The translations under genes were made by a program, and so were the position numbers. Positions 19,361 to 61,442 of a stretch of 64,000 nucleotides of DNA are shown here, one piece after another (position 1 is the stretch's first letter; the number at the start of each line of letters is the position of its first letter). Origin of the DNA: Weissella muntiaci (GTDB lineage Bacteria; Bacillota; Bacilli; Lactobacillales; Lactobacillaceae); assembly GCF_008107635.1 (NCBI RefSeq), contig NZ_SDGZ01000004.1, positions 62,001-126,000 on the forward strand, given 5' to 3'. The notes beneath the pieces are model-generated. The model ran no database searches and was not told where the DNA came from. It saw only the letters and a program-made list of their open reading frames with translations.

Positions 19361-19398
19361 ACTCCTAAGCTTTTAACGTGGATCATTTTTGCACGTAT
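19361..19398. repeat. Cargo-associated repeat, copy A
   Basis: It contains GCTTTTAACGTGGATCAT and then TTGCACGTAT. Close copies lie at 57307, 59504 and 61099, and a partial one at 61350. It sits between the immA stop and the ribosome site of the cargo gene. Read on the minus strand it has ACGTG and CACGT arms 11 bases apart. Confidence 0.85.
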
Positions 19399-19401
19399 AT
19401 T

Positions 19402-19824
19402 TTAAACTGATTCTATTGCTTCATGAACTATATCTTCAAATGCTGAAGGTAACCCAAATTCACCCATGAAGTTTATATAATTACGGCTATACATTGGCAC
19501 ATCAAAATACATAATTGAAGCAATAATTTTAGAAGCACCATAGTGTGCTCTTCGTTCCTCATATTTCTCACTCAATGGGGAGAAAGCATAAGCTTTCTGA
19601 TCTTCCAAATCACCATATAGTAGGTGAGCCAACTCATGAGCTAACCTAAATACAATTGAGAAACTTGTCACATAATTTTTATTCAAAAAAATAATATTAT
19701 CCCCAGCGATTGCCAAATCGGGCTCATCATCTTTTCTATCTACTACAATAATTTCAATGCCATTTCTTGATGCAATCGTTGATAATTGAGAATACATTTC
19801 TTGCTGGAAGTAACTTAGGTTCAT
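19402..19824 (-). CDS. ImmA/IrrE-family metallopeptidase
   Basis: A 140-residue protein with the zinc motif HELAH at residues 63-67, inside FRLAHELAHLLYGD. In the ImmR/ImmA systems of integrative elements this protease cleaves the repressor after DNA damage and starts induction. It lies two bases after the repressor gene, so the two are cotranscribed and translationally linked. A close homologue lies in the downstream remnant at 61443-61892. At 140 residues it is a minimal version with only the peptidase domain. Confidence 0.88.
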   Translation of the reverse strand: MNLSYFQQEMYSQLSTIASRNGIEIIVVDRKDDEPDLAIAGDNIIFLNKNYVTSFSIVFRLAHELAHLLYGDLEDQKAYAFSPLSEKYEERRAHYGASKIIASIMYFDVPMYSRNYINFMGEFGLPSAFEDIVHEAIESV

Positions 19825-19826
19825 AA

Positions 19827-20177
19827 TCAGTTGCCTCGCATCTTACGAATTTGACGTATCTGATCAATGATGAAATCGCGATACTCATCGCTGATCTCTT
19901 GACCATCAAACTTCAAAATTATACTATCGTCCTCCAAATCAACTTCTTTTTGCTCGTCCTTAGCAGGATGCGGATTTTTTTCGTCAGTGTTACCTAGTAG
20001 GTAATCAACAGACACGTTCAATTTTTCAGCGACCGCACTTAAAGCGGTTGCACTAGGCTGGTTTGATTTCCAGCCGTAAATTACATTTTGGGATAGTCCA
20101 GCAGCTTCGGCTAGTGTTTTCAAACTACTGTAACCTTGCTTTTTGGAAGTTTCTTTTACACGTTCAAAAATAGTCAT
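19827..20177 (-). CDS. Phage repressor, XRE-type HTH (ImmR-like)
   Basis: A 116-residue repressor with an N-terminal helix-turn-helix (residues about 8-65; SLKTLAEAAGLSQNVIYGW carries the two helices) and VSVDYLLGNTDEK at its end. There is no LexA/CI-type self-cleaving domain; instead a short acidic C-terminal tail precedes an ImmA-like protease gene, so induction probably works by ImmA cleavage. It is divergent from the Cro-like gene across a 278-base operator region. The remnant repressor at 61892 shares its tail but differs in the recognition helix. Confidence 0.9.
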   Translation of the reverse strand: MTIFERVKETSKKQGYSSLKTLAEAAGLSQNVIYGWKSNQPSATALSAVAEKLNVSVDYLLGNTDEKNPHPAKDEQKEVDLEDDSIILKFDGQEISDEYRDFIIDQIRQIRKMRGN

Positions 20178-20455
20178 ATCAATACCTCTAAAGACACTGA
20201 ATAAAAATCACACATTTATTTGATTAAAAAGGTTGCAATCACAAATATATGTGCTAATATTATTCATGTACCTAAGTTCTTTTAAAAAATGGTGCATAAA
20301 ACAAAAGCAATAAAAACCAGTAGGACGGTGAAATTAGTTGCTTAATGTTTGTTTTATTGCGCTTATTTATGTGTATATCTTAGCACATATTTATGTGAAG
20401 GTAAACAAAATAAAAGAATAAAAGTACACCAAATAATAAAAGGAGGTTTATATAT
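20178..20455. promoter_or_regulatory. Genetic switch region of the intact prophage
   Basis: This divergent intergenic region holds palindromes of the form CACATA-NN-TATGTG: a perfect one at 20384-20397, one with a single mismatch at 20240-20253, a weaker half-match at 20360-20373 and a related CACATTTATT at 20211. They are placed on both the repressor side and the Cro side, as for a lambda-like switch. AAAGGAGG lies before the Cro-like start. Confidence 0.75.
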
Positions 20456-20686
20456 ATGGTGGCAGTAACGATTGACCGAAGGTATTTATCGCGAGTTGGA
20501 CGATTGATTGGCAAAATTTTTGAAGCAAAGAAAATTGCTGGGATTAATGAAACAAAGGTAGCAGACTACCTTGGAATTTCCATGACCACATGGAATAACG
20601 TAAAGAACGGAACAGCGGGTACAGATACTGCTGAACGAGTTCTTAACGGTGCTGAAAAATATGTAGATGGAATTTTGAATCAATAA
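20456..20686 (+). CDS. Cro-like small DNA-binding protein
   Basis: A 76-residue protein with a probable helix-turn-helix (TKVADYLGISMTTWNNVKNG, about residues 34-53). It is the first gene on the lytic side, directly opposite the repressor, and follows a strong AAAGGAGG ribosome site. Position and size suggest a Cro-type antirepressor that competes for the switch operators. The long reverse-strand frame over it is a shadow. Confidence 0.75.
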   Translation: MVAVTIDRRYLSRVGRLIGKIFEAKKIAGINETKVADYLGISMTTWNNVKNGTAGTDTAERVLNGAEKYVDGILNQ

Positions 20687-20698
20687 TGGGGTTGGATG

Positions 20699-20920
20699 AT
20701 GTCTAAGAAAATGTCGGAAATACAAGATAGAGGATTGCCTGTCTTGAATATAGATGAAATTGCGAAATTTTATTTTGGGCATAACGCAACATGGTTTAAC
20801 ACAAATATGCGTAACAATCCTAAATTTACAAGGAATGTTCCAAATATAGGGTTGAAGCGTCCGGAGTGGAAACGATCGGATGTAGCAAGGTTCGTTAAGC
20901 AGTCTAGTTGGACACAATGA
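20699..20920 (+). CDS. DUF771-family phage protein
   Basis: A 73-residue protein typical of DUF771 in phages of lactic acid bacteria: RGLPVLNIDEIAKFYFGHNATWFN and a C-terminal WKRSDVARFVKQS. The arrangement resembles a winged-helix excisionase-like DNA-binding fold, but the role is not established. It lies just after the Cro-like gene. The remnant has a close copy at 63402-63620. I chose the second ATG (20699), which gives better spacing from GGGGTTGG and the same N-terminus as the copy. Confidence 0.8.
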   Translation: MSKKMSEIQDRGLPVLNIDEIAKFYFGHNATWFNTNMRNNPKFTRNVPNIGLKRPEWKRSDVARFVKQSSWTQ

Positions 20921-20934
20921 AGGGAGGTGAGTAC

Positions 20935-21087
20935 ATGTTATCTGGCACATTTGCAGCATTATTCGGAATAGTAGTAATCGCAATTTCAGGTTTGAAGTTT
21001 CTATATATAGAAAATCACAGACCTGTGTATTACGTAGAAGGCACAAAAAAGCACACAGCGGCCGGCAAGCATACTGTGTGCAAGTAA
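20935..21087 (+). CDS. Small single-helix membrane peptide (50 aa)
   Basis: GGGAGGTGAG precedes the ATG by 4 bases. The first 23 residues form a hydrophobic helix (FAALFGIVVIAISGLKFLY) followed by a basic tail ending in KHTVCK. No family recognised. It lies between the DUF771 and DUF1351 genes in the early operon. Confidence 0.65.
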   Translation: MLSGTFAALFGIVVIAISGLKFLYIENHRPVYYVEGTKKHTAAGKHTVCK

Positions 21088-21162
21088 ATTTATCACATAA
21101 CTCAAATCTACTCTTTGAGTTTATCACTTAGGGTAGATTGTCGCAAAAGAAAGAGGACATCA

Positions 21163-22068
21163 ATGAGTAATGAACTCGCAGAGATCTCCATCAATGCAAC
21201 GCCAGCCAATGTGAACGTTGCGAACTTGGATCAGTTGAAGGCTGCAACGCTGGAGACTGTTAATAAGTACAAATCATTTCCGGTGGCTCAACAAACCGAA
21301 AAGGGTGCTAAAGACATTCGCAAAGAGTTGAATGCGATCTTACAAAGTATTAAGCGCCAACGTATCGACACTGAGAAGGCTTTGTTAGGCAACTGGCCAA
21401 GTACCAAAGAACAACTGGTTGAGTTGGAAAAGATCGTTAAAGAGGGTGCTGATTTAATTGGTGACCAGCTTAAAGAGTTGGATGAAACACGTAAGGAAAA
21501 CAAGCGCCAAATGATCAACAAAGAGATTGCAAAAATCTCCGAAGCTTATCCGCTGGTGCATGAAGAAATCGTGTTCGATGAACGATGGCTGAATAAATCT
21601 TATTCATGGCCTCAAATGTTAGAGGACATTAACCATCAATTTGAAAACATCAGCGAGCGAATTTCACAGGCAATTGAGCTTGAAAAATTACGATCTAATG
21701 AAATCAAGAACTACGCCGAAAAGTTGAACGTTGAGGCTGACGGCTATATCCATTTGTTGGAAACAATGGACGTTGATGCAGTTAAACAAAAGATGGATTT
21801 TGACGCATCAGCGGCTAAAGCAGCGATCGAAGCTAAGCATGAAGAAGTTGAGCGAGAACGGCAACAGCAGCAAGAGAAGGTCGATCAGGCCACACAAGTT
21901 GGTGACAAACTGATTGATTCTGACACAGGCGAAGTTGTGGAACAAAAGGAAATCAAGCAGTTTGCTAACTTTAATTTCCGAGTAAGCCACATTACACCTG
22001 AACAATTTGACTTTATCAAGCGTGGCTTTGAACAAATGGAGATCGACTTTTCTTATAAGGAGGTCTAA
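21163..22068 (+). CDS. DUF1351 phage recombination-module protein
   Basis: A 301-residue, highly charged, coiled-coil-rich protein. Its N-terminus (ISINATPANVNVANLDQLKAA) and the region VEKIVKEGADLI fit DUF1351, which in phages of lactic acid bacteria precedes the recombination ATPase and single-strand-binding genes. The exact function is not established. I chose ATG 21163, preceded by AAAGAGGACATCA; an upstream in-frame start at 21115 adds a basic leader without a ribosome site. Its stop abuts the next gene, whose ribosome site GGAGG lies inside its final codons. Confidence 0.78.
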   Translation: MSNELAEISINATPANVNVANLDQLKAATLETVNKYKSFPVAQQTEKGAKDIRKELNAILQSIKRQRIDTEKALLGNWPSTKEQLVELEKIVKEGADLIGDQLKELDETRKENKRQMINKEIAKISEAYPLVHEEIVFDERWLNKSYSWPQMLEDINHQFENISERISQAIELEKLRSNEIKNYAEKLNVEADGYIHLLETMDVDAVKQKMDFDASAAKAAIEAKHEEVERERQQQQEKVDQATQVGDKLIDSDTGEVVEQKEIKQFANFNFRVSHITPEQFDFIKRGFEQMEIDFSYKEV

Positions 22069-22734
22069 ATGCAACTTCTAAATTCTAGTCAAATAACCTC
22101 AAGTAACACACTTTGGATGATCTACGGTGATCCGGGAGTCGGAAAGACATCACTCGTGAAAAATCATCCAGCGACACACAAATTGGTAATAACCTTCGAT
22201 CAATCCCATGAGGTACTTCGGGGAATTGAAGGAGTTGATGTCATGGTTCCAAGCATTGAAGAGCTAAAAGAAATGCACAATATTTTACCAAGTGTTATCG
22301 CAGAAGCAGCCGCTCGTGGCTACGGCTTAATTGTTCTTGATAATGTTTCAAATGTATCGGAAACAATCCTTGATACATTGAAATCACAGTATAAGGACAA
22401 TAGATTGGCTTACGTTGATCTACAAAATTGGTTTAGGCAATTAGCGCAATATATGAAAACATTGCCTGTTGAATTTCTAGTCACAGCTTGGGAATCGGCT
22501 GAACAAGAAGTGATCGGAGTTAATACAATAACTCGGTATAAGCCAACAATGAATGCCAAAACACGTTCAATGTTTACAGGGCTTTTTGATTTTGTTGGAC
22601 GATTGCACATTAATAGCGACAACGATCGAATAATCACAACAGCGCCAAACGAATATACATTTAGTAAAAATCGTTTATCAGATAAATCAGAATTTCTAGC
22701 AACAGAATTATGGAAACAAAAGGAGAATAACTAA
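22069..22734 (+). CDS. Sak4-like RecA-fold phage ATPase (AAA_24)
   Basis: A 221-residue P-loop protein. Walker A is YGDPGVGKTSLVKN near residue 19 and the Walker B strand is GLIVLDNVSN near 84. Such proteins sit with DUF669 in phage recombination operons and are thought to act as single-strand annealing or strand-exchange ATPases like Sak4. It begins the base after the DUF1351 stop and overlaps the DUF669 start by one base, so expression is tightly coupled. Confidence 0.85.
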   Translation: MQLLNSSQITSSNTLWMIYGDPGVGKTSLVKNHPATHKLVITFDQSHEVLRGIEGVDVMVPSIEELKEMHNILPSVIAEAAARGYGLIVLDNVSNVSETILDTLKSQYKDNRLAYVDLQNWFRQLAQYMKTLPVEFLVTAWESAEQEVIGVNTITRYKPTMNAKTRSMFTGLFDFVGRLHINSDNDRIITTAPNEYTFSKNRLSDKSEFLATELWKQKENN

Positions 22735-23444
22735 TGACATTTACAGCAGACTCAACAAAGAAGCAAGGTGGACAAATCATTTCTTACGCTGGTAAGTACA
22801 ATGTAGAAATCACTGACGCAGTGTACAGCGTTTCTAAAAGTTCAGGTAACGAAATGGTTACTATAACTTATAAAGTTCTTGATGGAACTGAAGCAGAGAA
22901 TATTATTCCTTATGATATGTTGATCGACGATAGAGCCGATGATGTACCCGGAGCGACAAAGACATTCTTTGCTTACAAGAAGATTAATTCATTCTTAGTT
23001 GATGGTTTGGGACTAGCAGATGGAACACCATTTGAATTGAAGGACGCGAAAACGTTGCTAGTTGGAAAGCGACTTTCAGTTAATACGACTTGGCGCGAAA
23101 ATGAGTTCAACGGTAAGAAAAGCTGGCGAGCAAATGTATCTTCATATCACACAATGTTGCAAGGCGGATCAGAGCCAAATACTGACAAGCCACGCCCAGA
23201 AGCAACTGATTCAGGAACGTCAAATCAAGGTAACGCATTCGGATCACCACAAAATGGTAATGGAGCTTTTGGGGCACCTTCAAATAACAATAACGCTTTT
23301 GGTGGAAGTAATGCGTTTGGTTCTCCAGCATCAATGCCAACAGACAACGATCAACCACCCGCAAACTTTGGAGCACAGCAACCACAACAAGATCCATTCG
23401 GAAATCAAGGCGCAAACTTTGGCGGTGGATTCGGTCAACAATAA
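22734..23444 (+). CDS. DUF669 single-strand-binding-like protein
   Basis: A 236-residue protein: about 145 residues of DUF669 fold (TYKVLDGTEAENIIPYDML, KTLLVGKRLSVNTTW) and then a low-complexity tail rich in Asn, Gly, Phe and Gln with repeated NAFG and FG units. The tail is like the flexible tail of single-strand-binding proteins, which recruits partners by its end; here it ends in GGFGQQ. With the Sak4-like ATPase and RusA it forms a recombination module. Start and stop both overlap the neighbouring genes in TAATG junctions. Confidence 0.82.
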   Translation: MTFTADSTKKQGGQIISYAGKYNVEITDAVYSVSKSSGNEMVTITYKVLDGTEAENIIPYDMLIDDRADDVPGATKTFFAYKKINSFLVDGLGLADGTPFELKDAKTLLVGKRLSVNTTWRENEFNGKKSWRANVSSYHTMLQGGSEPNTDKPRPEATDSGTSNQGNAFGSPQNGNGAFGAPSNNNNAFGGSNAFGSPASMPTDNDQPPANFGAQQPQQDPFGNQGANFGGGFGQQ

Positions 23445-23896
23445 TGATCTATGTACAGGCTGAGGTTGTGCTACCAATGACACATGCATCGGGAAATCAA
23501 ATGGAGCACAACACGCACACTAACACTGTATTCAGAACCGCGGGATATCACAAGTATCAAAAATATATTGTTGATTCGCTGCAAGAATTGGGTGATGAGT
23601 TAGGATGGAAAGTTCCTAAAGGAACTGCACTCCAGCTTAAAATGTTATTCACATATCCTGTCCCAGAATCAAAAGTTAATACGAAAGCTAAGCGAGCAGC
23701 ATTTGAAGCAGGAAAGATTTATCCCATAACGCGAGGCACGGTGGATTTGGATAATTCAACCAAAGCAGCAGCCGACGCATTACAGGAAGCTTTTGATTTT
23801 GATGATTCACAGTTTATTTTTGAAATGCTGGGTAAAAAATACGGATTAGATAACAGACTATATATTGAGATATCAGACGCCGAAGTAGATTGGTAG
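23444..23896 (+). CDS. rusA: RusA-family Holliday junction resolvase
   Basis: A 150-residue RusA-type endonuclease. The metal-binding acidic cluster is visible in GTVDLDNSTKAAADALQ and FDFDDSQFIFEM, and the lysine-rich stretch SKVNTKAKRAAFEAG is the DNA-binding part. It would cut four-way junctions formed by phage recombination or replication before packaging. It follows DUF669 with overlapping stop and start. Confidence 0.88.
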   Translation: MIYVQAEVVLPMTHASGNQMEHNTHTNTVFRTAGYHKYQKYIVDSLQELGDELGWKVPKGTALQLKMLFTYPVPESKVNTKAKRAAFEAGKIYPITRGTVDLDNSTKAAADALQEAFDFDDSQFIFEMLGKKYGLDNRLYIEISDAEVDW

Positions 23897-23915
23897 GCCG
23901 AAGGGGGAAGTGCCC

Positions 23916-24764
23916 ATGATGGCATTTAAAATTGCGGGAAACCGTGGTGCTTATGATGTTGTGGATGATTTCGATATTAAGATATTCATTGAATCGTTGC
24001 CGCTTAAAATTCCACCAATTGTTGATGTTCAAACTTACAAAGACTTTGAAGCTACTTATTTCACGCCTAGCAATTTGATTGAAGGATTAACTAGGCGCCG
24101 TGAAAACATCAAGGATATTCAAGCGATCATCTTTGATTTAGATTTTGTTCCTGATTTGCATGAACTAGATCAAGACTTGATGAAGCTGGTTAATTTCGAC
24201 ATGGAGTTCCATGCTTGGCAAACACCATCATCGCTTGGTAGTTCAAAACATGAGGGCGGCATGAGATTGTATATTCCTTTGAGTGTGCCAATTGAACCGA
24301 AACTTTTGCCGCAAGCTGTGGATGAAATCGTTAAGACTTTCATCTTGGAAGTTGGTATCAACTTACTAAATTATGGAGCCGACATCAAAGCTAGTAAAAC
24401 AGTAGGGCGATTGATGGGACTGCCCTTGCAGCAATACTTAACTTTTAGTTGGTATGGTTCATGGCGATATGCAGTTCAGAGTAAGTACAAAGCACCCAAG
24501 CATAAATCAAGAAAAGGTCGGCAGACTAATCGTGGAGTATCACCCGAAAAGTTTGTTAAGGACTACATGCGAAAGCACAATGTTCCTGAATTAGTTCTTG
24601 GTCACAATGTACACAACACATTGCAACAATTGATCGGGGCATTGTCTAAGGCGGGCTTTGAACAAGAGCAGGCAATTGAGGGATTGGAATTTCTTTCAGG
24701 CATTCCGACGCATGGGATGGGCGATATTGAAAAAGAAGTCATGACATCGAGCGCATACAAATAG
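23916..24764 (+). CDS. Primase-like phage replication protein
   Basis: A 282-residue protein with an acidic strand IIFDLDFVPD near residue 70, HAWQTPSSL and GGMRLYIPLS near 105-125, and a C-terminal helical region. This matches the layout of archaeo-eukaryotic primase-like proteins found beside phage helicases, where the Asp pair binds metal and the His follows, but the assignment is by layout, so function is inferred. AAGGGGGAAG precedes ATG 23916; a GTG at 23910 overlaps that region. It lies 11 bases before the helicase gene. Confidence 0.6.
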   Translation: MMAFKIAGNRGAYDVVDDFDIKIFIESLPLKIPPIVDVQTYKDFEATYFTPSNLIEGLTRRRENIKDIQAIIFDLDFVPDLHELDQDLMKLVNFDMEFHAWQTPSSLGSSKHEGGMRLYIPLSVPIEPKLLPQAVDEIVKTFILEVGINLLNYGADIKASKTVGRLMGLPLQQYLTFSWYGSWRYAVQSKYKAPKHKSRKGRQTNRGVSPEKFVKDYMRKHNVPELVLGHNVHNTLQQLIGALSKAGFEQEQAIEGLEFLSGIPTHGMGDIEKEVMTSSAYK

Positions 24765-24775
24765 GACGGTAACAA

Positions 24776-26722
24776 ATGGAGTTTAAAGAATACAATCCAC
24801 GAGCCGCCAAGAATTATCAATTTCATTTGGAAGTTGTGAATGGTATTTCGCAAAAGCGAGCGGAAGCAATTGCAGGAACTAGATCATTATTCTTGGCATT
24901 GGTTAATGGATATGACGGGAAGGATGATGATAAGCAAGTCATCTACAATGAAAAATCAATTGATTTGTTGACACAGGTTCCAAATATTACTGAGGAGACT
25001 GCTAAACGATACATTGAAGAATACAATAACAATCCGTTTCAAGATGTTAATTGGGAAGTAAAAAAGCAGCTAGATCGCTTGGCACTTGAAAATCCAGAAT
25101 TTGGGCTAAACCAAAATAAGATTTATAAGATTGCCAAAGCAGTTGATGACTTAGAAAACCCATGGAGCGCATATAAAACGGGCGCATTAACTTTTGAGTT
25201 CACGGCAAATATTTACGGTATGTTTACCAAGGATAATTTTGAAAAGCGCAAGAAGGTTTTAGCAGTTTGGAATGCTGAAAATCAGTTGAGAGAAAAGGAA
25301 TCTCAAAACCTAATTACAGTTAAGAAATCTGATTATATTTTGGATGATGATTCTCTAAAGGATTATGGAATTGTTACGCCGTTCATGGACGGTTGGGCGA
25401 GAACTGAAACGTTACGAGCTTACAAGATTGTTAATGATTTGCTAAAAAACAATGTAGGTGTATCGGTAGGACATGAAATTGAAGATGTTGATTTATCTGA
25501 TTTGTTTGATGATCAGAAAGAGGCCGTCGAGAAAATCATGAAGCAACCAATTTCATTCTTAACTGGTTACGCCGGTACAGGTAAAACGTTCGTCATTAAG
25601 AAAGTTTTGGAAGCACTGGGTTATAAGGGCAAGAGCTTATCAAATTATGCAGTTGCAACCGCATTGGCTGGTAAAGCTGTTAAGAATTTCGTTGAAAGTG
25701 TTGATGGAATTAACATCCAGACAACAACAATCACGGGAGTTAGAAAGGTTGATAAGTATCGCAAGTTGTTTGCACACGCAACCACGATTGTTGTTGATGA
25801 ATTTTCAATGATCAGCTTGCAAGACTTAGCCTATCTTTTCAAAATCAATCCAGAAGCACGATACATTTTTATCGGGGATAGTAATCAACTGCCGGCCATT
25901 GGCTTAGATGTATTGCAACGGTTGGAAGACGAGAACTTACTTGTACCAATTAAGCTAACGATCCCAAAACGGCAAGCAGCTGAATCAGGAATTTTCAAAG
26001 ATTCAATGGATGTTATCAAGGGTGAGATGCCAAAATTTGAACATCCAGATAGTACGGCATATTTCAACACGCCGGGTCATGAATGGATGATAGAAGAAAT
26101 TGTTTCAAGGCATCCGAATGCAGATGTATTTCTGACAACTGCAAACGGAGCAAAAGACTTGATCAATGGAATTAAACACCAAGAAATTATTCAACGAACT
26201 CCAGAAGAGGAATTGTTGAATTTCGATGGAAAACAATTCTTTGCACATGGTGACAAAATTATTGTTGGTAAAAATAATCCTGATACTGGATTTATGAATG
26301 GTGATATTTTCATAATCATTCGAGATGAAGACAATGGAAAGTTTTATCTAAACAACATGAAAGGTGAGCGAGCGTTACTTGATGATGCCGGTCAGCCGCT
26401 CGAATTTAACGACATTAATTTTGATTTTCAAAAGCATAAAGCAGAACTTGGATTCGCAATCACTGTTCATAAGTCACAAGGATCAACAATTAATAATGTA
26501 GTTTCGATTCTTGGTTACTCTCGATTGTCTAGCCGCAACATTTTATACACGGCATTAACTCGAGCAAAAGAATCACACGCATTGTATATGCCAAGTAAGA
26601 AAATTCTACAAGGCTATCTTGATACAAAGGTCAGTTACCAATCAATCGACATTGATCAATTAAACCTCGATCTGTTAGAAGAAAATGAGGCAATTGAGAG
26701 GATGAACGGTTACACCCGTTAA
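24776..26722 (+). CDS. RecD-like superfamily 1B helicase
   Basis: A 648-residue helicase. N-terminal helix-hairpin-like regions (QKRAEAIAGT, VPNITEETAKRYIEEY) are followed by motif I LTGYAGTGKTFVIKK near residue 262, motif II VVDEFSMIS near 341, motif III FIGDSNQLPAIG near 364, and C-terminal motifs FAITVHKSQGST and LYTALTRAKE, a close match to RecD2/TraA-type enzymes. It probably unwinds DNA 5' to 3' at the phage replication fork, with the primase-like protein upstream. A long hairpin follows the stop. Confidence 0.88.
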   Translation: MEFKEYNPRAAKNYQFHLEVVNGISQKRAEAIAGTRSLFLALVNGYDGKDDDKQVIYNEKSIDLLTQVPNITEETAKRYIEEYNNNPFQDVNWEVKKQLDRLALENPEFGLNQNKIYKIAKAVDDLENPWSAYKTGALTFEFTANIYGMFTKDNFEKRKKVLAVWNAENQLREKESQNLITVKKSDYILDDDSLKDYGIVTPFMDGWARTETLRAYKIVNDLLKNNVGVSVGHEIEDVDLSDLFDDQKEAVEKIMKQPISFLTGYAGTGKTFVIKKVLEALGYKGKSLSNYAVATALAGKAVKNFVESVDGINIQTTTITGVRKVDKYRKLFAHATTIVVDEFSMISLQDLAYLFKINPEARYIFIGDSNQLPAIGLDVLQRLEDENLLVPIKLTIPKRQAAESGIFKDSMDVIKGEMPKFEHPDSTAYFNTPGHEWMIEEIVSRHPNADVFLTTANGAKDLINGIKHQEIIQRTPEEELLNFDGKQFFAHGDKIIVGKNNPDTGFMNGDIFIIIRDEDNGKFYLNNMKGERALLDDAGQPLEFNDINFDFQKHKAELGFAITVHKSQGSTINNVVSILGYSRLSSRNILYTALTRAKESHALYMPSKKILQGYLDTKVSYQSIDIDQLNLDLLEENEAIERMNGYTR

Positions 26723-26801
26723 ATGTTACAGAACGATTTCAAAACAGGGTTTATATATATATATTTATAAGAACCCTGTTTAGACACACGTTTGTAACAT
26801 A
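26722..26801. other. Nested inverted repeats after the helicase gene
   Basis: AAACAGGGTT (26742-26751) and AACCCTGTTT (26772-26781) form a 10-bp perfect stem around a TA-rich loop of alternating T and A. Outside it, ATGTTACA and TGTAACAT form a second pair of arms. No T run follows, so this is not a plain terminator. A similar AACCCTGTTT next to a TA-rich run occurs in the remnant near 58233-58262. Confidence 0.65.
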
Positions 26802-26831
26802 AATAAGGGGGTGATTGGCGGTGAACTCACC

Positions 26832-27413: not shown

Positions 27414-27453
27414 GCAACACTACTATAACAATACGTTAGGATAAAGGTAATTA

Positions 27454-27852: not shown

Positions 27853-27886
27853 TAATCACTTTTTAATTAATCGGAGGATAAGGACT

Positions 27887-28612: not shown

Positions 28613-28653
28613 TTTATCAGCCAAGGGTGAAAAGACTGTGAGCCCGTTTTGAA

Positions 28654-29868: not shown

Positions 29869-29869
29869 T

Positions 29870-30307: not shown

Positions 30308-30322
30308 AAAAGAGGTTAAATC

Positions 30323-51398: not shown

Positions 51399-51401
51399 AG
51401 C

Positions 51402-52705: not shown

Positions 52706-52718
52706 AAGGAGTAAATAA

Positions 52719-53582: not shown

Positions 53583-53596
53583 AAAGGAGTAAGTTA

Positions 53597-53848
53597 TTGC
53601 CTAAAAGTTGGGATGAGTGGGCTGCGTTTGCTGGTGTTGCAGGTCTTGCACTTACTATTCTAGGTCTTTTATTTAAGCAGTATATTGGTATTCCAATTGC
53701 TAATCTAACTACAGAATTTAAAGAGAATAATAGGGTGCACATGAAACGTTTTGATAGCATTGATGAGAAGTTAAATGAACATAACGTGCAATTGAGCATT
53801 CATCACACGCAGATTAATAATTTAATGAAAGAGGAGAATGATGAATAA
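53597..53848 (+). CDS. Holin-like small membrane protein
   Basis: An 83-residue protein with one strong membrane helix (WAAFAGVAGLALTILGLLF) and a charged helical C-terminus. I chose TTG 53597 behind AAAGGAGT; an upstream ATG in frame lies inside the fibre gene. It overlaps the endolysin start by 8 bases. Lying directly before the endolysin, it is the best holin candidate, with XhlA-like layout. Confidence 0.7.
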   Translation: MPKSWDEWAAFAGVAGLALTILGLLFKQYIGIPIANLTTEFKENNRVHMKRFDSIDEKLNEHNVQLSIHHTQINNLMKEENDE

Positions 53849-54896: not shown

Positions 54897-54913
54897 TAAA
54901 ATTCAATTTGTAT

Positions 54914-54941
54914 AAAAAAGGAAAGGATAATCCCTTTTTTT
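54914..54941 (+). terminator. First terminator after the endolysin
   Basis: AAAAAAGG pairs with CCTTTTTT around a 11-base loop, followed by more T. An AT-rich hairpin with a T run. Confidence 0.55.
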
Positions 54942-54952
54942 AATTTCATATC

Positions 54953-54998
54953 AAAGCCCCGCTAGGTAGATTAATCTCTACTTGGCGGGGCTTTTTTG
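54953..54998 (+). terminator. Strong terminator ending the late operon
   Basis: AAAGCCCCGC and GCGGGGCTTT close a long stem (inner arms TAGGTAGA/TCTCTACTT), followed by TTTTTT. Confidence 0.93.
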
Positions 54999-55021
54999 TT
55001 GGTTTAATTTGTTAAAAAGTG

Positions 55022-55050
55022 TTGACAATAGATACTCATGAGAGTATTAT
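55022..55050 (+). promoter_or_regulatory. Consensus promoter with a palindrome in the spacer
   Basis: TTGACA at 55022-55027, 17 bp, TATTAT at 55045-55050. ATACTC-ATGA-GAGTAT (55032-55047) is a perfect 6-bp inverted repeat lying between the -35 and -10 boxes, where a bound repressor would block RNA polymerase. Confidence 0.85.
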
Positions 55051-55074
55051 AATATATATAGAAAGGGGGAAGCA

Positions 55075-55179
55075 ATGTTAGACAACATACAAAAAATCGT
55101 CGAAATCATATTCGAAGTAATTTCAACAATTGCCCTGTTGAAACAACTTAAAAAGAATAAGAATGACGACGATAAGTAG
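55075..55179 (+). CDS. Small hydrophobic peptide, candidate type I toxin (34 aa)
   Basis: GAAAGGGGGAAG precedes the ATG, and a consensus promoter lies 25 bases further up. The peptide has a helix (IVEIIFEVISTIALLKQL) and a charged tail KKNKNDDDK, the same plan as Fst/Lpt-type type I toxins. A hairpin terminator follows immediately. I did not find a known family; the toxin idea rests on size, layout and place. It lies between the late operon and attR. Confidence 0.6.
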   Translation: MLDNIQKIVEIIFEVISTIALLKQLKKNKNDDDK

Positions 55180-55208
55180 CAAAGCAAGGGCAGAAATGCC
55201 CTGCTTTG
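55180..55208. terminator. Hairpin after the small peptide
   Basis: CAAAGCA-a-GGGCA and TGCCC-TGCTTTG form a near-perfect stem with a GAAA loop and one bulged A. No long T run follows on either strand, so it could act as a weak terminator or as part of an RNA structure. Confidence 0.7.
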
Positions 55209-55240
55209 GTGTATCTAAATTCTAACATGCAAAACATATT

Positions 55241-55396
55241 ATGACAAAATTTTACAAAAATAATTGGTTCTTAATTGGGCTGCTCATATTAATAGTTGGA
55301 AATTGGTTTGTGAACTCTAATTCGATTCGTATTATAACTACTGTCGGGATTGCATTCTTTATTATAGGAGAGTTAAATGACAAGCGAAAAAAGTAA
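55241..55396 (+). CDS. Two-helix membrane peptide (51 aa)
   Basis: Two hydrophobic segments (WFLIGLLILIVGNWF and IITTVGIAFFIIGEL) with a short loop and a basic tail (NDKRKK). No clear ribosome site before its ATG. It overlaps the next gene by 20 bases. Function unknown; it belongs to the post-lysis module. Confidence 0.5.
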   Translation: MTKFYKNNWFLIGLLILIVGNWFVNSNSIRIITTVGIAFFIIGELNDKRKK

Positions 55397-55595
55397 TCTA
55401 GGTAGACCACGTAAAAGCGAAGATGAAAAGGTTAGTCAAAATGAAGCAAATCAAAACTGGCGGGAAAAGAACAAAGAAAAAACGAAATACTTGAATTACC
55501 GGAGTACAGCCCGCTCATTCATTAGAAAATTAGCGACTAACGCAGATCTTGATGAGTTAGAACAATTAATTGTGGAGAAAAGAAATCAAGAATAA
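55377..55595 (+). CDS. Small charged prophage-end protein (72 aa)
   Basis: A hydrophilic helical protein (LGRPRKSEDEKVSQNEANQN, then LNYRSTARSFIRKLA and LDELEQLIVEK). I have seen similar small proteins at the ends of prophages of Gram-positive hosts; function unknown, possibly DNA binding. ATAGGAGAG before the ATG. It ends directly at the right-end repeat motifs. Confidence 0.65.
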   Translation: MTSEKSNLGRPRKSEDEKVSQNEANQNWREKNKEKTKYLNYRSTARSFIRKLATNADLDELEQLIVEKRNQE

Positions 55596-55617
55596 TGGGC
55601 ACCGTTTGGGCACCGTT
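55595..55617. repeat. Right-end copies of the GGGCACCGTTT motif
   Basis: Two units of GGGCACCGTTT lie between the last gene and attR, matching those near the integrase at 17173-17226. Probably integrase arm sites. Confidence 0.65.
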
Positions 55618-55652
55618 TTACTACTAAAGCCCTACGCAATAACGTTTCAGTA

Positions 55653-55731
55653 TTCCCACGTACAATGAACCGCCTTTGGCCATAAACTTTAAATTAACAT
55701 TGATAAACCAACTAAACGCTTATAGATAGCG
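55653..55731. repeat. attR: second copy of the 79-bp repeat
   Basis: Identical to 17035-17113 over 79 bases. It carries a detached 3' end of asnS (the last 11 codons with the stop) and its terminator without the rest of the gene. Base 55732 differs (A for G). Confidence 0.93.
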
Positions 55732-55857
55732 ATTTGGTTGGTTTTTATTTTTTGCCTGAGTTGATCTAGATTAGCTCAAAATCGCTTAAATTTGGGCGCC
55801 GTTCGGGCACCGTGAAACTTTGGACGCCGTTTTTGTGGGAAAATTTTAACTAAATAT

Positions 55858-56325
55858 CTATATATCAGATAAAATATCTTGAGTCTTTTTCTTCAATAAT
55901 TTGTTTTTCAGAGAGTAAATGAGCGTCCACTTCCATTATAATTGTTATGTCAGCACGGCTTGGTAAGTTTGGGATATAACCAACTAATATCCACACACCT
56001 TTAGAACTTAAGCAACTTGCATGGCTGGGTTTTAGACCGTATAGTGAAACATTGATATTAAAACCTAATTATTTTTAGATCTTATGAAGCCATATGTTGG
56101 CAATGGTTGATTACCTTAGTCCTGATTCCAGGTGAACTCGCGCATAGTTTTTAAAGAGATTTTGAAGTGTCTAAATCTTGTGGTGTATTGTTTGTTTTCA
56201 ATTCGGCTAACTAACTTCTAACGTCTGATTTTATTTTAAAGGTTTGTACTTTGCGATGGCGTTTACCATGTTATTGATAATCAGAAACGGCGCGTCATTT
56301 GCCATTAGGTTTCTTTGTTGTGATA
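55858..56325 (-). pseudogene. Integrase pseudogene
   Basis: DNA here aligns with the intact integrase: 55858-56107 matches its C-terminal end (stop to about 17490) and 56108-56325 matches its N-terminal end. About 600 bases of the middle are deleted and several frameshifts and stops are present. The decayed GGCACCGT motifs lie between it and attR. It cannot make an active recombinase. Confidence 0.88.
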
Positions 56326-56960
56326 ATTTAAGCCTAATGTTACTGTTGTAAAACTGAACAGTTTAAAGACGTACTCAGGCCTGCTATACCAATCGACAGG
56401 TCTGAGCAATAATATTCGTTTTGAAGAGAGAATCTACATCACTTTGCTTGCCAGCGGGGACTTTTAATGCAGCTTCTAGATAATAGATTCTCGTCGATTA
56501 TGTATGACTAGTTGAGTTGACAGAAAGTAGCTGCTATTTTTTGCTGTAAAGTTTTGTATGGATGCTACTTTTTTAATTTTGGAAAAAATATGAATTTCGG
56601 TTTTTCTAATTTTGAAATTAATATCATCTAATTTAGCGATTTGAGTTTTTAATCAATTTACTTCGTTGCACAACTACGGATAATAACGATTAATTCAAGT
56701 GCTACTAGAAGCACTTGAATTAAATCTTCACTTCTATTTGTTGAAGCTATTCTAAGTATAGGCACAAGATAGTTAATTCATTTTAAGGCGTTGGCGCCGA
56801 AATAGCATCCATTAAATAAATTAGATCTAGACCCAATAAGATAACTATGATACTACGTATTCGGGAGTGAAAATTTTAATCAATTTCCAAATCAAGTTTT
56901 TGGTGTGGAACATGGTTGAACATATGTATCCTTGCCTTAGCAAGGAGGTTATCCAATAAA
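56326..56960. other. Degenerate region upstream of the broken integrase
   Basis: It begins with a match to the int upstream region of the intact phage (GTTTAAAGACGTACTCAGG at about 56362) and a decayed copy of the hairpin at 18437. From about 56470 to 56960 I see no gene and no clear regulatory element. Confidence 0.6.
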
Positions 56961-57287
56961 TTAGATCTTTTCAATAGTTACGGCAGTACCGTAAGCTGTG
57001 ACGGATTCTCCAATTTCAGAAGTAGTGGTATCAAAACGGAACATTATTACGGCATTTGCACCAAGACGGGCAGCGTCTTCTTTGAGGCGATTTACAGCTT
57101 CTTCACGTGAATCGTGTTGGAGTTTGGTGTAGCCTTTTATTTCGCCACCGACTAATGATTTCAGACCTTGTCCAAAGCTTGAAACTGCATTACGTGATCG
57201 ACTGGTTAATCCAAATACTTCGCCGAAGGTTTCAGTTACCTTATAGCCTGCGATATTCTCTGTAGTCACAACCAAGATATTATTCAT
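56961..57287 (-). CDS. UPF0145 (YbjQ-like) protein
   Basis: A 108-residue YbjQ-family protein with the typical LVVTTENIAGYKVTETFGEVFG at the start and LGANAVIMFRFDTTTS near the end. The family forms small pentamers and has been called heavy-metal binding, but its role is not settled. The reading frame is intact inside a decayed element, and the cargo-associated repeat lies 20 bases upstream, so it looks like a retained cargo gene. GGAGAAAT precedes its start. Confidence 0.88.
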   Translation of the reverse strand: MNNILVVTTENIAGYKVTETFGEVFGLTSRSRNAVSSFGQGLKSLVGGEIKGYTKLQHDSREEAVNRLKEDAARLGANAVIMFRFDTTTSEIGESVTAYGTAVTIEKI

Positions 57288-57306
57288 AATATTTCTCCCA
57301 AAATAT

Positions 57307-57335
57307 AGCTTTTAACGTGGATCATGATTGCACGT
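57307..57335. repeat. Cargo-associated repeat, copy B
   Basis: AGCTTTTAACGTGGATCATG and then ATTGCACGT. Upstream of the UPF0145 gene on the minus strand. Confidence 0.85.
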
Positions 57336-57426
57336 GAAGCACATAGTTAATTAAATGAACTCATCATCAATTATATGCTTCTATTTCCTTTTCTGATATA
57401 AATGGAACTAATAAAATACATAAACA

Positions 57427-57893
57427 CGATGAGCCAACGGAAGGTGGCAATGAATTTATTAGGGCTAGGAATTATGAATCAACCACTAAAGTAGCGATGT
57501 GGTTGATTAGTATTACGTCAGATGAAGTTGCGTAAGTTTTTAGAGAACAAGGAACGAATGTTGTTTCACCTGGCGACATTCGAGTAGTATTAGTGGATGA
57601 AACTAAAGATAATATTGACGTTGAAATATTTTCACCCGGTGGCAACATGGTAACTGGCAGTGAGAGTTATTCAATGCTACGTGCGAGCGGGAAGAATATC
57701 CCGGAAATTGATGTTAGTGCAGCGCGTGTTATTGCAACAGCCAGAGACAAGGTTTTATGCCGCCAGCTGTGCAAATTATGATTCACAACGCACGCTTAAC
57801 AGATGGAGCTCAAACTGATGACACTAGAGTTAAGAGCAGAAGTTCAGCAAATCCTGATGCGTTAATGAGTAATTTATCGAGAGATGCAATTTA
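57427..57893 (+). pseudogene. Portal/head-protease pseudogene fragment
   Basis: The first part matches the portal C-terminus (EPTEGGNEF-like) and the rest matches the ClpP-like protease from its start (the ISS/ITSDE region) through FSPGGNMVTGSESYSMLRAS to MIHNARL. Frameshifts, a stop near the start and the loss of the AAS catalytic serine segment show decay. It continues to about residue 135 of the protease and stops. It is homologous to 39655-40165. Confidence 0.88.
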
Positions 57894-57919
57894 ATCAATA
57901 TTGCTATTCGTCTGAAGAA

Positions 57920-58222
57920 TTAATTTAGTTTTTTCATCATGTAATAATGAGTATGTCCAGCAGGACTATTCTCTATTTCCCCGAAAACAGTGTACCCAAG
58001 TTTTCCGTATAAGCCTTTAGCTTGAAAGTCGAGGGTATCTAGCTGAGATATGGTACAGTTTAGTTGCTTTACTTCATTTTCCACAGATTGAACTAAATTC
58101 GAAGCATAAACCTATACCTCTGCGTCCATCAGATACTCATAGGGCTTTAACCATGAGAATATTCCAACAAATGATCTGTGCGACAGTTCCACCGGCTAGT
58201 TGGTTATCAACTTTAATGCTAC
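57920..58222 (-). pseudogene. GNAT acetyltransferase pseudogene
   Basis: On the minus strand the C-terminal part reads TLDFQAKGLYGKLGYTVFGE and then HTHYYMMKKLN, the hallmark end of a GNAT acetyltransferase. Upstream, VDNQLAGGTVAQIICWNIL is in frame but followed by TGA and a frameshift near the acetyl-CoA loop (RRGIG). Inactive. Confidence 0.75.
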
Positions 58223-58895
58223 GATTTAAGCGAAATGAAACCCTGTTTATATATTATAAATAGGAATTTTGCTGATGAGATCGAAGGAATCTGATGCAAT
58301 TAGATTGCGGGATAAAAGGTGATAATATCAAGTAGTTTAGATATACTTACAAGAATTCATTTATATTTTGTATTTTATTAATAGCAACGCTTATTCGTAT
58401 TTTACAAGGAAATATGTATTAATTTTACGTATTTACTAGTTTGAATAATATTTTCAAAATGAGAGCAGTCTATCAAAGGTTGTTCTTTTTTCTGCATCAA
58501 TATTTCCTATTTCGTTTGCTAGAAATTCAGCAAAGATTGGAGGACCTTGAAGGATTTAGATAATTAGTTGCTGAACGTGAAAATGAATAATAAGATACCA
58601 TTTTTGGTCTATTGTCCTGTAATACATAGTTATTAAAGTAACTAGAAAATGAAATCTGGGATGTAGTTAAGTTTTGAAACCTGCTGTTAACTTACAATTC
58701 GGTTATCTCAAATATGGGCTTAATCGTTGATCTTAAATAATTTAATTTTACGATGGAGAATATTATTTTATTTATATTCAAGTATATTCCGAGTTAATCT
58801 GTTGTGGTCATCTTAGTTTAAACCTAATGTATTGATTATAAAATTGAGTAGTTTAAAGACATACTCAGGTCTCAATTTTAGATAGTCAATCTAGA
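58223..58895. other. Degenerate region with a relic of an integrase upstream sequence
   Basis: Near 58233 an AACCCTGTTT beside a TA run recalls the hairpin at 26742. A minus-strand coding scrap (GPPIFAEFLANEIG) lies near 58470-58550. At 58808-58875 the sequence (GTTTAAACCTAATG, then GAGTAGTTTAAAGACATAC) matches the region upstream of int in the intact phage, but no integrase follows. Otherwise I see nothing. Confidence 0.55.
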
Positions 58896-59258
58896 TTAAA
58901 GAACAATACCCTTTTTTCGCAAGTTACATAAACACTCCATATAATAGTCATGGTCATGCTCAGGATAAATGGGGGTAGTTAATGGAACAGATGCTAGGTC
59001 AATGTATGGTGACGTTTTCAAGCCTCTATAGTTTGGATCCAACCAGAGTGCATCAATATGATAACCATGCTTTGCCATTTCCAGCATAACTTTTTCATGG
59101 AATTGAAATAACTTATAGGGCGAATGATTGAACACATAATTGACAGTGGCGTGGTTTCTACCCCAACCACCGCCTCTGAGTGCACAGCATTCTCTATGTT
59201 GTCCCAATAATTGTTGGCGGGGAAGTTTCGAAATTAAATCTTCATGCCATAATCTCAT
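58896..59258 (-). CDS. Pyrimidine-dimer-glycosylase-like protein (TIGR02328/EndoV type)
   Basis: A 120-residue protein: MRLWHEDLISKLPRQQLLGQ followed by HRECCALRGGGWGRNHATVN is the conserved N-terminal half of this family, related to T4 endonuclease V (DenV). Arg22 and Glu23 fall at the same numbers as the catalytic Arg22 and Glu23 of the T4 enzyme. The Thr2 amino nucleophile of T4 is replaced by Arg2 if the Met is kept. It would remove UV photoproducts. It overlaps the preceding membrane gene by 4 bases. Confidence 0.82.
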   Translation of the reverse strand: MRLWHEDLISKLPRQQLLGQHRECCALRGGGWGRNHATVNYVFNHSPYKLFQFHEKVMLEMAKHGYHIDALWLDPNYRGLKTSPYIDLASVPLTTPIYPEHDHDYYMECLCNLRKKGIVL

Positions 59259-59473
59259 TGGGATACCTCGCGGATAACAGAATTTTCGATGTATGAACTA
59301 TTACTACTAGTCAAAAAGAAGAAAGTGGCAATAATCTGTAAAGTGAGCATTGCCAAAACAAAGGTCGTAGTCATCCAAGGTCTTGCAATATCATAAGTTA
59401 TGATAAGGGAAGCTATTCCAAATATGTCTGAAATAATTATGCAGATGTAGCCGTAAATACTCCATTTACTCAT
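59255..59473 (-). CDS. Small two-helix membrane protein (72 aa)
   Basis: Two hydrophobic helices (IYGYICIIISDIFGIASLI and MTTTFVLAMLTLQIIATFFF) with short polar ends. I chose ATG 59473 behind GAGGTG. The stop overlaps the glycosylase-like start by ATGA, so the two are a pair. Function unknown. Confidence 0.65.
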   Translation of the reverse strand: MSKWSIYGYICIIISDIFGIASLIITYDIARPWMTTTFVLAMLTLQIIATFFFLTSSNSSYIENSVIREVSQ

Positions 59474-59503
59474 AATCGACACCTCAAATAATTGATACTA
59501 GTT

Positions 59504-59532
59504 AGCTTTTAACGTGAAACGTGTTTACACAT
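59504..59532. repeat. Cargo-associated repeat, copy C (diverged)
   Basis: AGCTTTTAACGTGAAACGTG and then TTTACACAT. It lies between the end of the glycosyltransferase-like gene and the small membrane gene. Confidence 0.75.
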
Positions 59533-59536
59533 ATGG

Positions 59537-61060
59537 TTATGAATGTTTTTGGGTTAATAGATTGTACAGACCAAATCCAGCTAGAACACTGATAAAAGGT
59601 GTGTACTGAAGCATATATTTGGTACCACCGGACTCAAAGATGAGTAGGAAGAGCATACCACCTAGAAGTGACAAGGAGACCAAAGTTATCTTGTCACTTT
59701 CTCTGTATTTCCAAATCGCATAGATAGCAGAAGATAGTATTACCAGCCAAATTAGTTGTAGGAGGAATAGGAATGTAGAACTCCAGCTTAGTAAATTACC
59801 TGGTTGTTGTTCTCTATCGTAGAAGATTTTTTCAATGTGACCGTTTATTGAATTTTTGGGAGCTAATTTGGTGACAATTGACCATAATTGCTCACGATGG
59901 AAACCGACCACGCCTGTATCCATATTATCACTGAATTTCGCCATGTAGAACTTGAAGGATTCAATAATTCCTCGATGATGACTACGTGAAATCAATTCAT
60001 TTAATTCAGCTTTTGTTCGTGCCGTTTTGTTATGTGCTTTAAGTGCGATCGATAGATCGCCATTGTTAAACGTTCCGTGCAATGAGTTCTTATCATTAGG
60101 ATCGCCGAAGCTTCCAAGTAAAGCATAGTGAACGATTGGAAAGCTCTTTGACTTATCAATTTTTACAATGGTCTGAGTATCCATATACCGATTTGCGGCA
60201 TATGTACTGATGGTGCCAGTAAGAAACAATGTCATTAATAGTAGGAGTACTGTACGAATACCATTAACTTTACCAAGGAAAGCTCGTTTTGAAATTACGA
60301 AAAAGATAATTAAGGCGATTAGAAAGATGATGGCACTTGGTTTCAACAAGTAAGCAATAGATGTTGAAATTCCGGCTAAAACCATAAAGAGATACTTTGC
60401 TTTTGAATCATTAAATGCTAAAACAATCAGTAGAATAGTGAGGTTTACAAAAGGTAGTACAAATGTGTCGGTGTATGTTAGAACAAAAATTGGTTGGAGC
60501 ATCGTGAAATATGCGAATATCAGCGTTACAACGTTTGCGATACTTCGAGATCCAAAATATTTGTGCGTGGCCAACTTCAAAAAGATTACTGATAAATCTA
60601 AACTTACTATTGCATATATCTCGAAAACAATAAGATTTGTTCCAAAGATTTTGGATAGAAAATAGCTTAGAAAGAAATAGAAAGAATTATTTGAATTTAA
60701 TGAAAGATAGTTTGACAGGCGAGAGGGATGATCTAATGCCGTTAAGATTATATTTGCATCAGAGGTTACATCGATCTTAAATGTATTTACCAAGACTAAT
60801 TGCATTACAACTAACAAAGAAAAAATTAGCCAAAAAATAATGTTGTTATTATTTTTGATAAACTGCCAAATACGTTTAAAAAGATCGACAGGTGGAAACA
60901 CGAGAAGTAGAAAAGCAACTGGTATTGTGAGAAGTATTAGTGCATAAAGTGTTCTACTTAATCCAAAGAAAGTGAATGTTGATGATTGTAAGGAGAAAAA
61001 TAGTGCTATTGACAGCAATATTAGAGTCAATGCATTGATCATCCTATATAAAGTTTTCAT
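59537..61060 (-). CDS. Polytopic membrane protein, glycosyltransferase-like (PMT/GT39 style)
   Basis: A 507-residue protein with about 11 membrane helices. After the first three helices, the first large loop begins FKIDVTSDANIILTALDHPS, where an Asp pair stands in the place of the catalytic Asp of GT-C enzymes. A second large outer loop lies at about 310-410, and the C-terminal helices follow. Phages use such lipid-linked glycosyltransferases to alter teichoic acid or other wall glycans and so change their receptor. No partner GtrA/GtrB is present. Family fit is by topology, so substrate is unknown. Confidence 0.65.
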   Translation of the reverse strand: MKTLYRMINALTLILLSIALFFSLQSSTFTFFGLSRTLYALILLTIPVAFLLLVFPPVDLFKRIWQFIKNNNNIIFWLIFSLLVVMQLVLVNTFKIDVTSDANIILTALDHPSRLSNYLSLNSNNSFYFFLSYFLSKIFGTNLIVFEIYAIVSLDLSVIFLKLATHKYFGSRSIANVVTLIFAYFTMLQPIFVLTYTDTFVLPFVNLTILLIVLAFNDSKAKYLFMVLAGISTSIAYLLKPSAIIFLIALIIFFVISKRAFLGKVNGIRTVLLLLMTLFLTGTISTYAANRYMDTQTIVKIDKSKSFPIVHYALLGSFGDPNDKNSLHGTFNNGDLSIALKAHNKTARTKAELNELISRSHHRGIIESFKFYMAKFSDNMDTGVVGFHREQLWSIVTKLAPKNSINGHIEKIFYDREQQPGNLLSWSSTFLFLLQLIWLVILSSAIYAIWKYRESDKITLVSLSLLGGMLFLLIFESGGTKYMLQYTPFISVLAGFGLYNLLTQKHS

Positions 61061-61098
61061 AATTGAACAAGACCCATAAAGTGATACCCAAAATCACT

Positions 61099-61136
61099 AC
61101 TCCTAAGCTTTTAACGTGGATCATGTTTGCACGTAT
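61099..61136. repeat. Cargo-associated repeat, copy D
   Basis: ACTCCTAAGCTTTTAACG, TGGATCATG, TTTGCACGTAT. It matches copy A over nearly 38 bases, including the ACTCCTAAG that in copy A provides the ribosome site. Confidence 0.88.
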
Positions 61137-61442
61137 GGTATGGCAACATATGTGAACGTTGGTGCCGATTCAGATTGGTTCATCACGATAATTAACTGAA
61201 TTATTAGTATTATTCGAAGGTTATGTTGAGAAATCTGATTGCAGATTATTTCAATTTAGTTGAATATTTGTGATTTTTAGGCAATGTCTACAATCGAACG
61301 ATTGAGAAAAATCTTTGCCTGTTTGAATTTTATACCTAAATTTTTGTTTGATGTGGATCATTTATGAACGTATGCTTTTGTAATAGCAAAGTAAATGAAC
61401 AGTTCGAAATTCATGTTTGATAAATCACAAATATATACATAA
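61137..61442. other. Gene-free stretch between cargo and ImmA
   Basis: About 300 bases without a convincing gene. It contains only the partial repeat E; otherwise I see nothing. Confidence 0.6.
61350..61373. repeat. Cargo-associated repeat, copy E (partial)
   Basis: GATGTGGATCATTTATGAAC followed by GTATGC retains the GTGGATCAT core and the ACGTAT end. It lies 69 bases from the ImmA stop, the place where copy A stands in the intact phage. Confidence 0.55.

Follow-up and report, generated by a model that had tools for sequence, protein, structure and literature searches.

The nearest described analogue of the repeat considered here, which lies beside cargo genes of two prophage elements of Weissella muntiaci (contig NZ_SDGZ01000004.1, positions 62,001 to 126,000 of the forward strand; these 64,000 nt are called the window), is the SAS/ESAS system of cluster K mycobacteriophages. 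As presented in the relevant parts of three papers (PMC3203893, PMC12699233, PMC11373665), this is a short conserved repeat found where translation begins in many unrelated phage genes, with an inverted repeat upstream in about half the cases; its function is given as unknown, with translation suspected. The two systems differ in several respects. SAS is a 13-bp sequence, GGGATAGGAGCCC, that lies at the start codon and contains the Shine-Dalgarno sequence, and the consensus of the Weissella element is different. Changes in the ESAS repeats generally do not support RNA pairing (PMC3203893), whereas the present element shows paired changes. ESAS holds a putative SigA-like promoter (PMC11373665), whereas no excess of promoters accompanies the present element. 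Finally, SAS and ESAS are found in cluster K phages, the present element in many types of phages and hosts.

Two other systems bear comparison. The Lacto-int motif (Weinberg et al. 2010, PMC2864571, Table 1) is listed there from Lactobacillales and their phages, with question marks for both RNA and cis-regulation and no Rfam accession; its name was presumably taken from integrase. Phages of the same order carry the present element, likewise near int, and the two may be the same, to judge from the table row. If so, the remark of an earlier note on the window, that no description of the repeat was known, holds only in part. In Staphylococcus aureus prophages, a conserved 40-bp region before int is, according to the pertinent part of PMC2869324, a SigH promoter. 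It too is a conserved untranslated stretch of the lysogeny region, but it serves int, while the present element precedes cargo genes.

Comparison of its copies indicates that the repeat encodes a small structured, probably cis-acting RNA element of about 29 nt, 5' of cargo genes. Within the repressor operon it probably serves as a portable leader for the start of translation, its sameness from gene to gene doubling as a joint between cassettes.

Copies in the window and evidence for a fold

Searched with GCTTTTAACGTGGATCAT at up to 3 mismatches, the window contains four matches (19369, 57308, 59505 with 3 mismatches, and 61107), all read on the minus strand, as against 0.05 expected; none of 100 shuffled sequences reached four. 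An unfiltered covariance model search recovered the same four places, and its only further match in the window (15148, E 0.41) lacks the stem. The copies are as follows.

19368..19396, minus strand: copy A of the RNA element (ACGUGCAAAAAUGAUCCACGUUAAAAGCU); pattern search, model 50.7 bits
19362..19366, minus strand: Shine-Dalgarno sequence AGGAG behind copy A; read directly
57307..57335, minus strand: copy B; pattern search, model 48.2 bits
59504..59532, minus strand: copy C, diverged (AUGUG...CACGU, with a U-G pair possible, and the AAAAGC tail retained); pattern search, model 25.2 bits
61106..61134, minus strand: copy D; pattern search, model 50.7 bits
61350..61375, minus strand: partial "copy E"; read directly, below the model threshold

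Copies A, B and D read ACGUGCAANNAUGAUCCACGUUAAAAGCU on the minus strand and copy C is a diverged form of it; the start of a gene comes next. The earlier note was thus right that a repeat recurs beside prophage cargo genes, that its arms ACGTG and CACGT are 11 bases apart (true of copies A, B and D), and that copies A and D are alike over about 38 bases, AGGAG included. Its placement of copies before minus-strand cargo genes is borne out by all four real copies. Two of its positions, 19361 and 61099, are each 8 bases too low, and its fifth copy, at 61350, is at most a decayed one: it retains TGATCCAC but not the AAAAGC tail, and the covariance model finds no match there at E ≤ 1.

On the gene strand, the element consists of a stem, ACGUG-loop-CACGU, and a tail, UUAAAAGC. 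The clean test of the stem comes from pattern scans of viral contigs with four combinations of arms. The two matched stems were found in 70 (ACGTG/CACGT) and 68 (ACGTC/GACGT) stretches, the two mismatched combinations in 0 and 0. The four patterns differ in the pair, the ACGTG/CACGT scan being also narrower at one loop base. Diverged copies extend the list of paired stem changes to ACGTG/CACGT, ACGTC/GACGT, ACGAG/CTCGT and ATGTC/GACAT. An alignment of 91 distinct copies (A3) shows changes on both sides at four of the five stem pairs and also between positions 13 and 28. Its covariation score is 0.309, as against 0.102 after shuffling, and none of 500 shuffles reached it; 91.0% of cells pair (78.3% shuffled), and there are 54 two-sided changes (17.8 shuffled). 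Over 347 parsed copies, normalised mutual information reaches 0.99 (positions 5-17), 0.96 (4-18), 0.86 (13-28) and 0.85 (8-12), the values for the stem being inflated, as are stem percentages, since the parsed set demands at least four of five pairs and a central G-C and takes the best parse over loop lengths.

The loop is 11 nt long in 234 of 289 copies and otherwise ranges from 6 to 19 nt. Because its middle can be missing (CAGAAC) or long, the conserved part comes down to the frame CA // GAWY and the tail AAAAGC. Positions 8 and 12 are coupled, either A-U or G-G, a non-Watson-Crick pattern that suggests a tertiary contact. Tail and loop are likely joined by at least one more pair, 13-28, which is G-C or U-A. 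The usual combination is G13 with C28. U13 with A28 or G28 occurs in 21 viral stretches, all one lineage with A28, and U13 with C28 or U28 in none of the viral contigs by the same kind of scan. Relatives of that lineage, the scaffold-gene elements of phages phiFL1A and PLgT-1, have G13 with C28, and five further U13 elements elsewhere (L109, L230 twice, L267, L276) have A28 or G28.

Position before start sites and the genes that follow

An open reading frame begins within 160 nt behind 156 of 164 distinct copies, 146 of those with a Shine-Dalgarno sequence of at least 4 nt; in a wider set the figures are 327 of 347 copies and 312. The gap from tail to Shine-Dalgarno sequence has a median of 6 nt, and the middle half of 278 copies falls between 4 and 11 nt. 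Upstream, a same-strand open reading frame (at least 50 aa) ends no more than 10 nt away in 76 of 277 copies and no more than 100 nt away in 208. In 71 copies the upstream protein is of the HExxH, ImmA type, at a median gap of 6 nt. Promoter-like -35/-10 pairs are found upstream of 62 of the 277, as compared to 73.3 +/- 7.6 in shuffled sequences, hence no excess. The frequent upstream gene ends, taken together with the lack of promoter enrichment, place the element mostly within an operon. I found no transcript map of a lysogeny module in the literature searched.

Inverted arms and a location upstream of genes would suit the promoter or operator, common to the cargo genes, that the earlier note had proposed. 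A DNA site of this sort is very improbable, and a shared promoter was rejected for want of any upstream excess. The element often begins a few bases past an upstream stop codon; positions 8-12 and 13-28, which change together, are not mates in a palindrome; and both versions of the stem occur within single prophage contigs (L045, L080). A DNA palindrome, or half sites at fixed spacing, was likewise rejected: the loop length is not fixed, the conserved tail is asymmetric, and mismatched stems number zero. The coupled stem changes point instead to an RNA fold, and an expression signal common to the cargo genes, the broader part of the proposal, is plausible at the level of mRNA.

The 327 downstream frames fall into 105 protein clusters, and scanning 91 of the 105 cluster representatives gave matches to 60 Pfam families. 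Among the 25 of these that are listed are TM2, bPH, SLATT, Abi_alpha, AAA_15, Bro-N, enterocin immunity and the capsid scaffold Gp46. Matches to restriction or GajA-type models come from single members. In Streptococcus thermophilus phage TP-J34, the element lies between an immA-like gene and ltp, a superinfection-exclusion gene (PMC3952083). The GenBank stem_loop of that locus (1775-1803) only touches the element (1801-1830), and the words "stem-loop" do not occur in the available text of the ltp paper (PMC3952083). Phage Sfi21 has the element before orf203 in its "immunity region", and phage 7A5 has a copy with a cro-like gene on one side and a hypothetical gene on the other. In phage A2 it precedes ORF22, where nearly the same bases (AJ251789.2, 23736-23765) are annotated as the cI terminator, perhaps through a misreading of the element's hairpin.

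Enterococcus phage phiFL1A and Lactococcus phage PLgT-1 each have two elements in tandem ahead of the capsid scaffold gene, and a pneumococcal phage has a single one. Since tandem versions precede capsid scaffold genes, the element is not tied to lysogeny. The tandem arrangement was seen in 8 parsed loci. Tandem elements 34 to 40 nt apart occur at L364:2003-2068, L365:2003-2065, L214 and L321.

As a translation-start leader, the element would work as follows. The lysogeny operon would be read through from the repressor promoter. Each copy on this long message would then be a module of standard form that gets translation of the next gene started, either because it offers the start site to the 30S subunit or because it makes the message more stable.

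Several observations weigh against this account. I infer the role in translation from position only. The predicted accessibility of the Shine-Dalgarno sequence is 0.47 over 276 elements and 0.44 over 250 control genes (p 0.14), so that the notion of an element that hides the Shine-Dalgarno sequence was also set aside. Eight of the 164 elements have no close open reading frame behind them, and in 45 cases the gap to the Shine-Dalgarno sequence is long, mostly with no significant hairpin within it (median z -0.08). As to the fold, two of the five measures made on alignment A3 were reached by 35 and 25 of the 500 shuffles, an earlier, narrower alignment had two-sided changes at only one of five stem pairs, and pair 1-21 is unpaired in 26 of the 91 copies. 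The contact between loop and tail is a single pair, unformed in 15 of the 91, some of these by misalignment, and the elements of L022 and L102 have U13 with C28. Furthermore, Ali et al. announce the ltp promoter for a later paper; if it proved to lie within the element or downstream of it, this would count against a leader. The stem and the position carry the case for a leader, and my estimate of it is therefore unchanged by revisions concerning pair 13-28 and the L010/L013 comparison (below). An additional hairpin as the general cause of long gaps was considered and rejected, being clear only in a handful of cases (z -2 to -4), mostly in this genus.

The conserved CA // GAWY and AAAAGC exceed what a plain hairpin needs, and this, with the tandem arrangement, raises the question of a regulated switch, in which the RNA, like a very small riboswitch, would bind a small molecule or host protein and tune translation of cargo and scaffold genes, tandem copies acting together. 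The preQ1-I riboswitch, at about 30 nt, is likewise a hairpin with an A-rich tail adjoining the Shine-Dalgarno sequence, and the compact stem and A-rich tail of the element, directly before the Shine-Dalgarno sequence, resemble its architecture. The genes concerned are different, however, and in 13 locus inputs no Rfam 15 family matched over the element at E ≤ 5, nor did any reach the gathering score in 5 inputs. In addition, there is no sign of a hidden Shine-Dalgarno sequence, and the downstream genes, among the 25 of 60 families listed, have no evident common pathway. I consider a switch unlikely. In a bolder form of the idea, Lactobacillales phages would have a new class of RNA that reads a signal, very small at about 29 nt and in some places in tandem, ahead of their genes for defence, immunity and the capsid scaffold; one host factor or small molecule would tune all of these genes, and the RNA would also be the standard joint for cargo swaps. 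This is more of a long shot still.

Many copies in arrays (L087, L022, L009 and others) are preceded by an intergenic GC hairpin of varying sequence and then AUACAU, sometimes by two in a row, and hairpin and linker could be a processing site or a protector of the 3' end. Such a site would fit an element that stabilises the message, its fold blocking 5'-to-3' decay by RNase J after upstream processing and so giving a durable cargo message. Lactobacillales hosts use RNase J, and nearly all stretches found in a scan of bacterial and archaeal genomes (below) bear names from that order; the tandem copies before scaffold genes would fit as well. The tight spacing to the Shine-Dalgarno sequence, however, is not needed by a mere block, and copies that directly adjoin an upstream stop codon lack the GC hairpin. 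A stabiliser of this kind seems to me an unlikely reading.

Gene neighbours in the window and spread of the element

The genes around the copies in the window are these.

17252..18331, minus strand: tyrosine integrase, downstream of the copy A cargo gene; Pfam/PHROG scan
18476..19360, minus strand: copy A cargo gene, 294 aa, with a hydrophobic N-terminal stretch; open reading frame and profile scan
19402..19824, minus strand: ImmA-like metalloprotease gene (Peptidase_M78), immediately upstream of copy A; Pfam/PHROG scan
19827..20177, minus strand: CI-like repressor gene, upstream of immA of the first prophage element; Pfam/PHROG scan
55877..56318, minus strand: broken integrase remnant of the second prophage element; its three fragments share 61-75% identity with the integrase at 17252
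56961..57287, minus strand: copy B cargo gene, YbjQ-family protein, 108 aa; Pfam scan
58896..59258, minus strand: second gene behind copy C, pyrimidine dimer DNA glycosylase family, 120 aa; Pfam scan
59255..59482, minus strand: copy C cargo gene, small membrane protein, 75 aa; open reading frame
59537..61060, minus strand: copy D cargo gene, 507-aa protein with multiple membrane spans and a PMT_2 glycosyltransferase match; Pfam scan
61443..61892, minus strand: ImmA-like gene of the second prophage element; Pfam match below cut-off, PHROG metallo-protease match
61892..62239, minus strand: CI-like repressor gene of the second prophage element; Pfam/PHROG scan

In the first prophage element, copy A stands between immA and the 294-aa cargo gene, and the integrase follows. 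No Pfam or PHROG match at 0.01 was found for the 294-aa protein, and an in-frame ATG at 19351 is better spaced from AGGAG than the ATG at 19360. The order in the second is cI, immA, decayed E, D, the 507-aa PMT_2-like protein, C, the 75-aa protein, glycosylase, B, YbjQ and the broken integrase. Behind copy D (61044-61097), a frame of 17 codons, opened by the GTG that comes after AGGAG, overlaps the beginning of the 507-aa gene. The ATG of that gene itself, at 61060, lacks a clear Shine-Dalgarno sequence; a leader peptide or coupling is possible.

That the repeat occurs nowhere else, as the earlier note had it, is true of the window, but the genome holds 18 copies by pattern (up to 3 mismatches) and 20 by covariance model, where a reversed control pattern has zero matches. 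One other prophage of the genome has seven copies in the stretch from immA to int, each followed by a different protein, in most cases a membrane protein, and two relatives of the 75-aa protein behind copy C are also found behind copies in another prophage of the same genome. Around the copies in L012, L014 and L015 the integrase queries found no match. In L014, copies at 5959 and 7282 precede related proteins beside a gene that by eye resembles recA, again with no integrase match in the stretch; these copies have perhaps been taken over by the host.

Beyond this genome there are several hundred copies in related phages and genomes. The first search patterns fixed part of the stem, and with pattern search 16 of 60 related genomes were positive; here, as in the figures that follow, the genome itself is counted. 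Within the family, model R1 found the element in 98 of 251 genomes, and within the order in 34 of 295. For the class, with model R2 and a stricter limit, the figure is 6 of 299, and for the phylum 1 of 299, the genome itself; all these searches were confined to its own phylum. Two of the class genomes, G650 and G723, lie outside the order, but their matches do not precede a start site and were counted as chance, so that spread beyond the order was rejected.

A scan of bacterial and archaeal genomes gave 58 stretches, of which 56 carry Lactobacillales names, the genera including Weissella, Fructobacillus, Convivina, Leuconostoc, Lactococcus, Streptococcus, Lacticaseibacillus and Dellaglioa. The other two are short contigs of metagenome-assembled genomes, named Alphaproteobacteria and Saccharibacteria and probably mis-binned. 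The first pattern matches 70 stretches of IMG/VR viral contigs, and 5 plasmid records match the element as well. Of phage records, 154 matched, and in 135 of them a single place covers 80% or more of the query; matches in the few records from Klebsiella and Escherichia are probably chance. A blastn search of a 1.4-kb flank against phages gave no match.

Possible exchange of cargo at the element

The related phages searched show the arrangement that the earlier note had thought worth looking for: the element often stands right after immA in a module of cI, immA, cargo and int, with unlike cargo behind alike elements. Its view of the repeat as a seam of homology for the exchange of cassettes finds support in the flanks. 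Among pairs drawn from 284 copies with 150 nt on each side, 75 are alike upstream and unlike downstream, 45 the reverse, 18 share both flanks, 25 are intermediate and 40,023 share neither, the pairs not being independent. Contigs of 13-16 kb provide examples of a slot filled (L038) and empty (L046, L071, L073, L090), the element in the empty cases lying 300-odd nt before an integrase-like gene. These contigs are probably lactococcal, since the same flank occurs in L121 (Lactococcus hircilactis). Set against the pattern of integrons, in which a site bounds each gene and there is a dedicated integrase, the cargo borders fall on the element.

The comparison of L010 with L013 is less simple. Their ImmA proteins are identical at 140 of 143 residues and their integrases at 295 of 391, while the cargo proteins are alike only in the first 10 and about 47 further residues. 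This leftover similarity led me to reject a clean cargo swap, leaving partial exchange only.

Coincident cargo borders, empty slots and an integrase gene often nearby might also be expected of a pure recombination seam, or a cassette site of the integrase type, with no role in expression. This is hardly credible, because the stem changes in a compensatory way and lies close to the Shine-Dalgarno sequence, both of which call for a role as RNA; furthermore, the copies at scaffold genes sit among structural genes, and the middle of the loop is variable. With a translation-start leader, on the other hand, every cargo gene carries the same module, and genes would be exchangeable at it with expression kept. 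From the flanks I infer that recombination makes use of the element. Exchange could proceed by homologous recombination there, or through selection for intact modules, and the swapped genes would stay expressed.

The element offers a testable structured RNA with covariation support and no Rfam match found in the inputs given. If the account given here is true, it explains how phages carry, swap and express unrelated cargo genes with no promoter for each: one RNA module would stand before each gene in the repressor operon. The element would then also serve as a handle in the search for unknown genes of phage defence and lysogenic conversion in lactic acid bacteria, of which ltp and orf203 are known examples.

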